Assembly (NCBI GenBank): GCA_017995495.1
Contig: JAGOIS010000029.1
Span: forward strand, 1-11,976
Direction: 5' to 3'
DNA length: 11,976 bases
Source of the DNA: Candidatus Cloacimonadota bacterium
GTDB taxonomy: Bacteria; Cloacimonadota; Cloacimonadia; Cloacimonadales; Cloacimonadaceae
Positions within the stretch are counted from its first letter, which is position 1, and the number at the start of each line of letters is the position of its first letter. Below, piece by piece: positions 9,623 to 11,976 of the stretch. Made by a program: the position numbers and the translations under genes. The notes beneath the pieces were generated by a model that was given only the letters and a program-made list of their open reading frames with translations, was not told where the DNA came from and made no database searches.

Positions 9623-10230
9623 AAAAACGCGCCATGTTCTGGTTCCTAAACCTGCTGCTCCTGCTTGGGCTGTCCTCCTGCCTCTTGCACACCAGTCTGG
9701 TCTATTTCGACAAAGACACCGAAGGAGTCCCCAATCTCATCTCCAATCCCGGTTTCAGCGCCTATTCGCTGGATCCCAGGGAAGCGCTGCTGGGCTGGAG
9801 CGTGGCCTTGCAGGGCGAAAGCGACTCCGTTAAAAACCTGGTGTTCGTGGATGGGCGCGAGGCGGTGCAGGGAAATTCCTCGCTGCGCATCGACGCCTCG
9901 CCGCACACGGTGGTGGTGACCTCCGACGCCTTCAGGATCAGCCGTTATGGCGGCTACTACACCCGGTTCTGGGCCAAATCCTCCAGCCCGGTGGGCCCGC
10001 GCGTCAACCTCCGTTTCATCGCTTTCAAACGTAACGGCAAGATCGACCGCCAGTTCAAAACCAAGCTCAATACCACAGACACGTGGGAAAAGCAGTCCAT
10101 CAGCGCCGGATTTCTGCGTCCGGGAGCCAACTACGGGCGTCTGCAGATCGTGATCCCGCCTTTCGAAAAAGGTTCCGTCTGGCTGGATGACACCGGCTGC
10201 TGGGAAGTGCACCGCTTCAGAATAGACTGA
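9619..10230 (+). CDS. lipoprotein with a jelly-roll, carbohydrate-binding-like domain
   Basis: 203 aa. Its ATG overlaps the rodA stop (ATGA), with AGGGG about 9 bases upstream. Residues 1-21 are a lipoprotein signal: MKKR, a Leu-rich core and lipobox L18-S-S-C21. Residue +2 is Leu, so sorting to the outer membrane would be expected under the E. coli rule. The mature part resembles a CBM4/9-type beta jelly roll: an NLISNPGFS opening, a central G-W-S-V strand, the V-Q-G-N-S-S-L-R-I segment, the F-W-A-K strand, and the closing G-S-V-W-L-D-D-T strand characteristic of that fold. I infer a binding role, perhaps glycan or peptidoglycan, but no specific family is certain. Its position between rodA and dtd, overlapping both, suggests co-expression with the elongasome. 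Confidence 0.85.
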   Translation: MKKRAMFWFLNLLLLLGLSSCLLHTSLVYFDKDTEGVPNLISNPGFSAYSLDPREALLGWSVALQGESDSVKNLVFVDGREAVQGNSSLRIDASPHTVVVTSDAFRISRYGGYYTRFWAKSSSPVGPRVNLRFIAFKRNGKIDRQFKTKLNTTDTWEKQSISAGFLRPGANYGRLQIVIPPFEKGSVWLDDTGCWEVHRFRID

Positions 10231-10667
10231 TGCGGGTGCTGGTCCAGAGGGTACTGTCCGCCAGGGTGGAAGTGGAGGGCGAGGTCCGCGCGGAAATTGG
10301 TGCCGGACTGTTGCTCTTTGTGGGTTTTGGCCGCTCCGATACGGAACTGCTGCCGCCGGTGGCGGCGCGCAAGATCTGCGCGATGCGCCTGTTCAGCGAC
10401 GATCGGGGCAAACTGAACCTCAGTATTGGCGATACTGGAGGTTCCCTGTTGGTGGTTTCGCAGTTCACCCTCCAAGCCAATTGCGGCCGGGGCCGCAGGC
10501 CGGATTTCACCCCCGCCGCGCCGCCGGAACTGGCCCACAAGCTCTACGACGACTTCGTGGAACTTCTCAAACAGCACGGCATCCCTGTTCAGACGGGCAT
10601 CTTCGGCGCGGACATGAAGGTGGCGCTGGTCAACGACGGCCCTGTGAGCTTCATCCTCGATTTCTGA
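10230..10667 (+). CDS. dtd: D-aminoacyl-tRNA deacylase
   Basis: 145 aa, the family's usual length. The ATG shares one base with the previous stop (TGATG), indicating coupled translation. DTD hydrolyses D-aminoacyl-tRNA (and Gly-tRNA-Ala), recycling tRNA and keeping D-amino acids out of proteins; it works as a cytoplasmic homodimer. The N-terminal MRVLVQRV, the S77-Q-F-T-L81 active-site motif and the C-terminal N135-D-G-P138 motif, carrying the cross-subunit Gly-cisPro dipeptide, are all present. The residue after GPV is Ser140 where Thr is common, a conservative change. It appears to be the last gene of the elongasome operon; a 40-bp-stem palindrome begins 13 bases after its stop. Confidence 0.97.
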   Translation: MRVLVQRVLSARVEVEGEVRAEIGAGLLLFVGFGRSDTELLPPVAARKICAMRLFSDDRGKLNLSIGDTGGSLLVVSQFTLQANCGRGRRPDFTPAAPPELAHKLYDDFVELLKQHGIPVQTGIFGADMKVALVNDGPVSFILDF

Positions 10668-10679
10668 ACCAGCTCCGCC

Positions 10680-10762
10680 CCGGCGATCAATACGGAATAA
10701 ATACGGAATCAATACGGATGAAATCCGTATTGATTCCGTATTTATTCCGTATTGATCGCCGG
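10680..10762. repeat. perfect 40-bp-stem palindrome with 11-base-phased TACGGA hexamers
   Basis: Bases 10680-10719 are perfectly complementary to 10723-10762 around the 3-base loop GAA (10720-10722). I checked every pair and found no mismatch. TACGGA starts at 10691, 10702 and 10713 and its complement TCCGTA at 10724, 10735 and 10746, so the six hexamers are exactly 11 bases apart, including across the centre. The element is richer in AT than its surroundings. It lies 13 bases after dtd between convergent genes, where a strong hairpin in either transcript could block exonucleases or halt transcription, but no U-tract follows on either strand. It may equally be an inserted palindromic repeat or a protein-binding array. 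Confidence 0.95.
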
Positions 10763-10802
10763 AGGGAAATCAGGGTGGAGCAGGCCAAAATCTGCCATCG
10801 TT

Positions 10803-10934
10803 GTGGCTGAAACCCTTATATCAGCCTCACGTAGCGCAGGATTCTGATCCTGCGGACGCGGAATCTTCGCAGCATTTGAATGCTGCGCCACGCCGGTGCT
10901 GATGGTCTTTGGTGCCGGCTGTTCAGAGGGTTTC
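10803..10934. repeat. REP-like twin hairpins nested in outer complementarities
   Basis: Two 8-bp perfect hairpins sit 13 bases apart: CGCAGGAT/ATCCTGCG with loop TCTG (10835-10854) and CGCAGCAT/ATGCTGCG with loop TTGA (10868-10887). Both stems begin CGCAG. The flanks CGTAGCGCAG (10830-10839) and CTGCGCCACG (10883-10892) are complementary with one mismatch, an alternative long-range fold. Further out, GGCTGA (10805-10810) pairs with TCAGCC (10821-10826), and GAAACCCT (10809-10816) with AGGGTTTC (10927-10934). The arrangement resembles paired REP elements, which are usually dispersed and flanked by short inverted repeats. A structured RNA or a bidirectional terminator region is the alternative. 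No coding sequence is visible. Confidence 0.6.
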
Positions 10935-10988
10935 GGTTAGGGGTCAGTTTATTCCGATAGTGGTGGTCGTGATCCTCTGTCCGGGCGG

Positions 10989-11976
10989 CTAATTGTCCAA
11001 AAAGTTGCCCAGAGCGGCGGGCACGTCCTCGCCCCGGTAGAATTTAACCGCCTTCACGTGATAGAACATCATGTCCGCGCCCAGGTCCAGACTGTAACTC
11101 AGGCCCTGGGTGACGCCAAAGAGCTCATAGACGCCGAAGGGCTGGGAGCAGCGGTAGATGAAGTAATAGCTTGGTTCCAGCGGCGTTCCCTGCACGGTTT
11201 GGGTGACAGGTTCCCAGCTCAGGGTGGCGCCGCTTTGGCCTTGGATGAGCGTCACGCCCGCGGGGGCCAGGGGTTCGGGGATCTGGCAGCTGCCATACAC
11301 GTTCAGCGAAGCCAGGGGCAGGCTGGGAGCGTTGCTGTGGATCTGGATGAGATTGGCAAATTCACCCGCGGCCTCAGGCGTGAAAGCAAGGTGGAGAGTG
11401 GTGCTTTCGCCCGGGGCGAGTTCGATGGGATAGCTGCGGTCGGCGATCTCAAAGGGGCCGGCGCTGATGAGCAGTTCGGCTGAATTGATCAGAAGGTCGG
11501 CCGTGCCGGTGTTTTGGAGCGTCAGTTCCGCCGAGCCGCTGGTGCCCAGCCAAACCAGGCCAAAATCGATGCTCTCAGCGGGAGACAGGGCCAGCACGGG
11601 ATAGCGGGGCAGGATTGTGATGTAGCCTGTCTTTTCGATAGTGTCCGTCGCGTTAAAGGAATTGGTGACGGTGAGGCTGACGTTGTAGCTGCCTGCCTCC
11701 AGCCAGGAGTGGAGAGGATGCTGCAGGGTGGAGCTGTTGCCGTCGCCGAAATCCCAGAGCCAGGAAACGATGCTGCCGGATCCCGGTTCAGATGTGTCCG
11801 AGAATTGGATCTCCACCAGTTCCAGCACCTCGGTCGCGGCAGCGGTGAAATCCGCCGTGGGCGCCAGCACCGGCGTGGCGCTGGCTTCGTTGGAATAGCC
11901 GGAATAGACGTTCACGTTGAGCGCCCGCACCCGGTAATAATAGGTGTATCCGTGCTGCAGACCGGTGTTGCTGTAG
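10989..11976 (-). CDS. secreted FN3 / PKD / choice-of-anchor-D protein, C-terminal part (5' end outside window)
   Basis: The frame stays open to the window edge, so the true start is beyond base 11976. An internal GTG at 11930 is not a credible start because the upstream in-frame residues (...GYTYYYRVRALN) are the last strands of an FN3 domain. Numbered from that GTG: FN3 end to about residue 17; a PKD domain (about 24-107) with its hallmark WLWDFGDGN (57-65); a choice-of-anchor-D / ASPM-SPD2-Hydin-like domain (about 111-220) with IDFG, the L-x-N-T-G-T-A-D-L turn and F-T-P-E-A-A-G-E-F; then a final FN3-like domain to residue 313. These are extracellular beta-sandwich modules of large adhesins or surface enzymes; any catalytic or anchoring region would lie N-terminal. 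No recognisable C-terminal sorting signal follows the last domain. Confidence 0.88.
   Translation of the reverse strand, partial: YSNTGLQHGYTYYYRVRALNVNVYSGYSNEASATPVLAPTADFTAAATEVLELVEIQFSDTSEPGSGSIVSWLWDFGDGNSSTLQHPLHSWLEAGSYNVSLTVTNSFNATDTIEKTGYITILPRYPVLALSPAESIDFGLVWLGTSGSAELTLQNTGTADLLINSAELLISAGPFEIADRSYPIELAPGESTTLHLAFTPEAAGEFANLIQIHSNAPSLPLASLNVYGSCQIPEPLAPAGVTLIQGQSGATLSWEPVTQTVQGTPLEPSYYFIYRCSQPFGVYELFGVTQGLSYSLDLGADMMFYHVKAVKFYRGEDVPAALGNFLDN

Follow-up and report, generated by a model that had tools for sequence, protein, structure and literature searches.

A family of near-perfect palindromes with an 11-base internal period, possibly a miniature mobile-like element, between genes of Cloacimonadaceae

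The stretch of DNA analysed here (the window, 11,976 nucleotides from a Candidatus Cloacimonadota bacterium) carries genes for MreB, MreC, a penicillin-binding transpeptidase and a RodA-type protein, which lie upstream of a dtd-like gene. The closest organism-named relative of the window MreC is that of Candidatus Syntrophosphaera (72% identity), and further named ones belong to Cloacimonadaceae. A palindrome begins 13 bases past the last base of the dtd-like gene and faces a minus-strand open reading frame, in agreement with a first-pass annotation that had placed it after the end of an operon and opposite a convergent gene (Table 1). Over positions 10680-10762 the palindrome is free of mismatches: two arms, 100% complementary over 40 nt, enclose a loop of GAA, and six TACGGA/TCCGTA hexamers recur at a spacing of 11 everywhere, across the dyad too. 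The perfect 40-bp stem and the 11-base spacing reported in that annotation proved exact when the hexamer starts were found again, and the claim that the phasing runs on through the dyad centre is borne out by the starts on either side of it.

Table 1. Features at and around the palindrome (positions in the window; a point marks features without strand).
Feature	Position	Strand	Remark
dtd-like gene (D-Tyr-tRNA deacylase; Pfam Tyr_Deacylase), last gene before palindrome	10230..10667	+	
Left flank: tetranucleotide (CCCC in window) and 4-base variable block (GGCG)	10678..10685	.	
Left arm of perfect palindrome	10680..10719	+	
71-bp family core	10686..10756	.	27/40 copies identical over core, window copy among them
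TACGGA x3, at 10691, 10702, 10713	10691..10718	+	
Loop GAA	10720..10722	+	same loop, in either orientation, in 40/40 genome copies found by dyad pattern
Right arm of perfect palindrome	10723..10762	+	
Inverted hexamers x3 (TCCGTA on +), at 10724, 10735, 10746	10724..10751	-	
Right flank: 4-base variable block (CGCC) and GGAG	10757..10764	.	
Convergent ORF, open at window end	10989..11975	-	

Folded as RNA, the window palindrome reaches -74.9 kcal/mol, compared with -26.6 (sd 3.6) for shuffled sequences (z = -13.5), and a single arm folded alone reaches -0.1 kcal/mol, indicating that it does not pair with itself. Near the palindrome, the window also holds two small palindromes, a short GTAG-tagged REP-like one at 10831-10854 and another at 10868-10887. 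Using a motif pattern of our own, we found GTAG-tagged palindromes four times in 240 kb of the window genome, twice in 342 kb of genome G011, and not once in 474 kb of other bacteria.

The genome from which the window derives (G000, a 1.49-Mb draft that is 71% complete) contains 40 near-identical copies of the palindrome, with 40 of 45 first-look candidates scored. The dyad motif ACGGAN5TCCGT occurs 40 times, compared with three occurrences of its reversed control, and its five central bases never differ except in orientation; the doublet TACGGAN5TACGGA occurs 69 and 71 times on the two strands compared with none on either for the reversed control. No lone arm stood among the 100 of these 140 doublet matches that were listed for the 71%-complete genome. 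Each copy is built around a core of 71 bp that reads ATCAATACGGA-ATAAATACGGA-ATCAATACGGA-T-GAA and then the inverse; outside the core, on each side, lies a variable block of four bases, followed outward by GGAG or GGGG in 54 of 78 flanks. When pairing between the outer flanks was assessed at 30 distances (36-65 from the centre), three showed nominal excesses (P < 0.05, uncorrected) and the others none. Since the flanks do not otherwise co-vary as pairs, we rejected the idea of an outer stem that is kept by pairing. Contig ends coincide with or lie close to some copies (C46 and C172 of G000 are examples, as are several in genome G003), and the palindromes may help to break assemblies.

These copies bear on several suggestions of the first-pass annotation. 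A fold-back assembly artefact is unlikely, because the 40 copies have differing flanks and the same design is found in other genomes. A dispersed functional family had been thought improbable should the element prove unique in its genome and absent at the orthologous locus of relatives; instead there are 40 copies, and a palindrome adjoins dtd in all five copy-rich members of the genus. The same observations support the proposal that so long a palindrome is either mobile or maintained.

On predicted gene maps, the copies in G000 and G011 lie outside genes. None of the 40 in G000 falls within a predicted gene, though 86% of the sampled sequence is coding, and none of the 91 in the two genomes together does so, on gene maps made with a home-made hexamer score and not a standard gene finder. 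The 76 copy-bearing gaps of the two genomes comprise 43 tandem, 20 convergent and 13 divergent ones, with 15 further copies at locus edges. Copies stand less than 60 bp from 21 of 83 gene ends versus none of 69 gene starts. Loop orientation does not track gene strand (5 same and 9 opposite, and 14 and 15); a strand bias with respect to replication, judged by GC skew, is weak in G000 (p = 0.045) and was not detected in G011 (p = 0.84) or among nine copies in genome G009 (p = 0.36).

Places as well as sequences are partly held in common. Nine of the 40 G000 copies adjoin the same gene end as a G011 copy, by a definition set after the table had been seen (65% identity, 90% coverage, same gene end, 400 bp) that excludes copies 10, 35 and 38 as partial or farther away. 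Approximately 13% of gene ends that face gaps of at least 100 bp carry a copy, as estimated from 342 kb of G011, and by that estimate perhaps five shared gene ends would be expected by chance versus twelve seen. Among the pairs listed, the flank is alike as well in pair 13, and the loop is inverted in three of 13 aligned G000/G011 pairs (10, 13 and 35). The cases of dtd and eno are clearer than the rest, dtd having been chosen because it lies in the window. A palindrome follows dtd in G000, G003, G007, G009 and G011, which are all the genus members with many copies of the window family; the gene further downstream is the same in G011 and, by eye, different in G003, G007 and G009. The dtd proteins of G003 and G011 match that of the window at 79 and 83%. 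After eno, a palindrome is present in G000, G003 and G007 and absent from the G009 locus (three of four genomes), and eno was not found in G011. There is a TTAATCAAG palindrome at this place in G010 and a degenerate TTAATCAAG-like stretch after eno in G012.

Upstream of purA, a palindrome is present in G000 and G007 and absent from the other loci fetched, including those of G003, G009 and G011. CGTTA stands directly before GCGAGGGC in G011; G000 has CGTTA, the palindrome and then GTGAGGGC. The G011 junction may be an empty site, for which the five common bases are weak evidence. Separately, one G000 copy (L173) is flanked by two genes, both of which also have a copy at the corresponding end in G011, but at different places (L247 and L249), and palindromes may mark points of rearrangement there.

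At two positions the copies of G000 and G011 carry nearly fixed, differing bases. At base -14, 37 of 40 G000 copies have A and 49 of 50 G011 copies have G; at base -25 the corresponding counts are 36 of 40 (A) and 48 of 50 (G), in each case with the partner base on the opposite arm. Arms are perfect in 36 of 39 complete G000 copies, compared with a mean of 19.8 and a maximum of 25 in 1000 arm shuffles, and in 31 of 50 G011 copies, compared with a mean of 18.5 and a maximum of 29. On the sequences compared, these species-fixed bases and the gene ends common to G000 and G011 argue that copies are homogenised within a genome while their places persist in part. Homogenisation is incomplete, with three of 40 G000 copies retaining the G011-type G at -14; two of these are shared copy 12 (L154) and the copy before purA (L172), which has G at -25 as well.

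Beyond the window genome, matches to the palindrome were found in 10 of 60 genomes, the window's own included: within the genus in G000, G003, G007, G009 and G011 and, at a single weak place, G002; the rest are G018, G020, G029 and G033, of other genera. These are first-look candidates, with at most 14 scored per genome. Exact dyad counts, made for four genomes and missing variant copies, are 40 in G000, 55 in G003, 51 in G011 and 12 in G009. The units of the copies that were read are TACGGG in G009 and G011, TACGGT together with TACGGA in G003, and another mix in G007. Unit number varies too: arms are of two and three units in G020 and of four in G018, and one G003 copy (L311) has three units on one arm and four on the other. 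Three exactly spaced TACGGA occur in six of 124 genomes of the phylum, all of them within the window's family. G021, a one-contig genome, holds eight arrays of three TACGGA at 11-base spacing, all on the plus strand, and the single array that was read (L307, approximately 1501-1528) is not the window-type palindrome. A search of bacterial contigs with the dtd protein returned other bacteria at 47-57% identity and no close relatives, and its 80 loci served as a control for the period. A phage or plasmid origin was rejected: of 26 viral-contig stretches with three spaced TACGGA, none has an inverted TCCGTA within 40 nt, and the 83-base element had no match in plasmid and phage collections at E 0.01.

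The same layout occurs with other units. At one Y1-transposase locus of G009 stands a palindrome with three TTAATCAAGNC units, and TTAATCAAGNC (TTAATCAAG-type) doublets are found in six of 13 genus genomes (reversed control 0), with 34 matches in G001 and 56 in G005, both of which are without a TACGGA-family match. G013, from a different genus, has a CCTTAGTATAA doublet at 54 forward and 53 reverse places (approximately 54 copies); of the 49 family genomes searched, none of the 48 besides G013 has it at one mismatch. Twenty G013 copies, picked for an exact match of both 22-base halves, have mirrored bases outside the core in several versions (GATCA, CATCA, GATTA and CATTA). Single palindromes with a best period of 11 were also seen in G016, G028 and G033. 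Across 36 loci of the genus (127 kb), which are non-independent because they were picked as dtd, eno and purA in 12 genomes and which include one short eno fragment, seven of eight palindromes with arms of at least 19 have a best period of 11. The corresponding figure in the 80 dtd loci of other bacteria (474 kb) is none of six at a cut of 0.6, with one control palindrome (L092) showing period 11 at 0.59, just under that cut.

Thus the period and layout are kept across these families, and most of the unit sequence is not. The families are not wholly unlike, ATCAA being common to TACGGA-type and TTAATCAAG-type units and TAATCAAG standing outside the G013 core, and with such short strings in common it is possible that all descend from one ancestor. 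A further palindrome family of G007 (CCCCACCCC...) was seen on both sides of a Y1 gene (L209, 1176-1218 and from 2190) and after eno (L315, 1259-1311); it is without an 11-bp period at the cut used.

We consider it slightly better than an even bet (probability approximately 0.55) that the window palindrome is a copy of a non-coding, miniature, mobile-like intergenic element that resembles REPINs and MITEs in its way of life. Pointing to this are the 40 dispersed intergenic copies, the mirrored arms, the homogenisation by species, the presence and absence at purA, and the recurrence of the layout with other units. The element would be a hairpin-forming palindrome whose arms consist of two to four head-to-tail 11-bp units in register through the centre. 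Long palindromes are cut by SbcCD. Copies would be spread and homogenised in trans by a protein, acting as a transposase or through recombination once a palindrome has broken; that protein would read the units on one face of the helix, and its co-evolution with the element would account for the differences in unit between lineages. Inspection by eye of the flanks of the 40 copies, whose exact end bases are not fixed, showed no target-site duplication. The candidate empty site at purA in G011 is suggestive only, no clean one having been proved, and no Y1 clade was, by eye, common to all element-rich genomes. Persistence after dtd (five of five) and eno (three of four) fits a kept function as well as it fits old insertions.

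The trait that sets the mobile-like element apart is an 11-bp period across largely different units, which fits a putative protein that recognises one helical turn per unit. We tentatively extend this to a class of genomic palindromes that a bacterial family would keep and that spacing, not sequence, would define, in which a lineage-specific 11-bp unit would be quickly replaced and homogenised at dozens of sites under a fast-evolving protein of this kind; the weight of this wider proposal is lowered by the short strings that the unit families share, since they may be related by descent. If true, spacing-defined palindromes would be a bacterial counterpart of satellite DNA with its co-evolving binding proteins. 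Long, perfect palindromes are as a rule unstable. Here a single genome retains dozens with arms of at least 34 bp (in G000 and G011 the majority are perfect), and these change sequence in concert without losing the 11-bp layout, which separates spacing from sequence as the conserved trait and offers a handle for finding the responsible protein. Searches of one open-access library, judged by titles and the openings of abstracts, turned up no description of this element.

A doubtful alternative, and the one that survives best, is that the palindromes are an array for the organisation of the host chromosome, with a co-evolving protein binding the 11-bp units cooperatively along one helical face at dozens of intergenic sites; roles in the nucleoid, in segregation or in insulation can be imagined. 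This reading gains weight from the recurrence of the 11-base period in palindromes with largely different units. It also agrees with the phase that continues through the dyad in the copies read, with the helical spacing of 11 bp that the window sites share with those of the other families read, and with the dtd-adjacent copies in five of five genomes rich in the TACGGA family. Against it, positions are only partly common (nine of 40 with G011), near-perfect palindromy and mirrored changes in the arms are not required of an array, and in G002, G008 and G012 the searches used gave at most one match to either genus-level family. The phased protein-binding array of the first-pass annotation therefore stands in part: the period recurs with different units, and no binding protein was found.

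It is improbable, in our judgement, that the palindromes are REP- or REPIN-type elements moved by a Y1 transposase, of RAYT or IS200 type, that their own genome encodes, and the link to Y1 genes is only suggestive. In the five genomes rich in the TACGGA family, an 11-bp-period palindrome lies 135-409 bp downstream of five of 14 Y1 loci. Any probability attached to this count supposes that copies are free to land at any place in the genome, contrary to their distribution, and two of the five loci (L205 and L214) hold nearly the same gene. In G009, where a single Y1 gene was detected, a palindrome of the TTAATCAAG type, which this genome seldom carries, lies 189 bp downstream of it, and a Y1 gene is present in seven of seven genus members with many copies of either family versus two of six others (Fisher p = 0.021, post hoc). 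However, GTAG, CTAC, CGTC or GACG occurs within 12 nt only four times in 78 outward flanks, the single arm is without self-pairing, the window genome has separate GTAG-tagged REP-like palindromes, the L205 and L214 RAYTs carry their own CACCGGAT repeats, and only 11 of 48 Y1 loci have an 11-bp-period palindrome within the stretch examined. Y1 transposases are found in 43 of 60 genomes (of three examples named, two are of IS200/IS605 type and one is REP-associated), and the palindrome-adjacent genes are of differing types. A single cognate Y1 transposase is not supported, there being by eye no type common to all element-rich genomes. The transposases at L205 (1146-1778, G003; REP-associated by NCBIfam) and L214 (1166-1798, G011) are near-identical, with CACCGGAT..ATCCGGTG repeats alongside, and perhaps reflect a recent transfer.

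We regard as similarly unlikely a role in RNA, in which a transcribed hairpin would end or protect transcripts and 11 bp would correspond to one turn of A-form RNA. The RNA hairpin is very stable and copies are tolerated right after stop codons. However, a crude scan found TTTT in the 25 nt after the palindrome at few gene ends (4 of 38 and 11 of 52), and a terminator-like hairpin before it at 7 of 38 and 12 of 52. No terminator-like site was found at the window palindrome, and after eno an ordinary hairpin with a T tract already precedes the palindrome. That placement, together with the 13 of 76 copy-bearing gaps that are divergent and the lack of a tie between loop orientation and gene strand, argues against a simple terminator role, and an intrinsic terminator was rejected. 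A comparison of positions 10200-11200 with Rfam gave seven matches to miRNA-precursor models, the best at 44.1 bits against a gathering threshold of 83, and none above threshold. Finally, growth by mutation alone, through slippage of 11-bp units and hairpin-templated copying with neither transposition nor function, is highly improbable: the varying unit number (three versus four in L311) and the mirrored arms agree with the slippage origin that the first-pass annotation had offered, but such growth cannot by itself yield 40 dispersed, homogenised, near-identical copies or an 11-bp length that recurs with other units.

The mobile-like element can be set beside several known systems. MITEs are short and non-coding and have long terminal inverted repeats. 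Terminal inverted repeats are present in the window palindrome; a target-site duplication was not apparent by eye, and the 71%-complete genome yielded no parent element. A survey of perfect inverted repeats in 118,019 genomes reports them near bacterial gene ends (Chantzi et al. 2026, PMC13155455), and the palindrome resembles these in its perfect arms and its proximity to gene ends; its main text contains neither "Cloacimon-" nor "periodic". GTAG/CGTC REPs, according to Di Nocera et al. 2013 (PMC3733652), are palindromic intergenic sequences of 20-40 bp with a tetranucleotide tag, some families being species-specific, and TIRtrons are described there as long terminal inverted repeats beside tyrosine transposases that may be mutually unrelated and partly self-complementary. 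The window element, in contrast to REPs, has a 71-bp core, no GTAG/CGTC tag and an 11-bp period, and we have not filed it as a REP because two tested features, the tag and the self-paired arm, fail. REPINs are presented by Bertels and Rainey 2011 (PMC3116915) as two REPs that form a hairpin, dispersed in extragenic space, non-autonomous and linked to specific RAYTs. The window element differs from them in its arm, which is an 11-bp tandem array without self-pairing, and in a candidate RAYT link that is suggestive only; it is like them in being an inverted-repeat hairpin dispersed between genes in many similar copies per genome.
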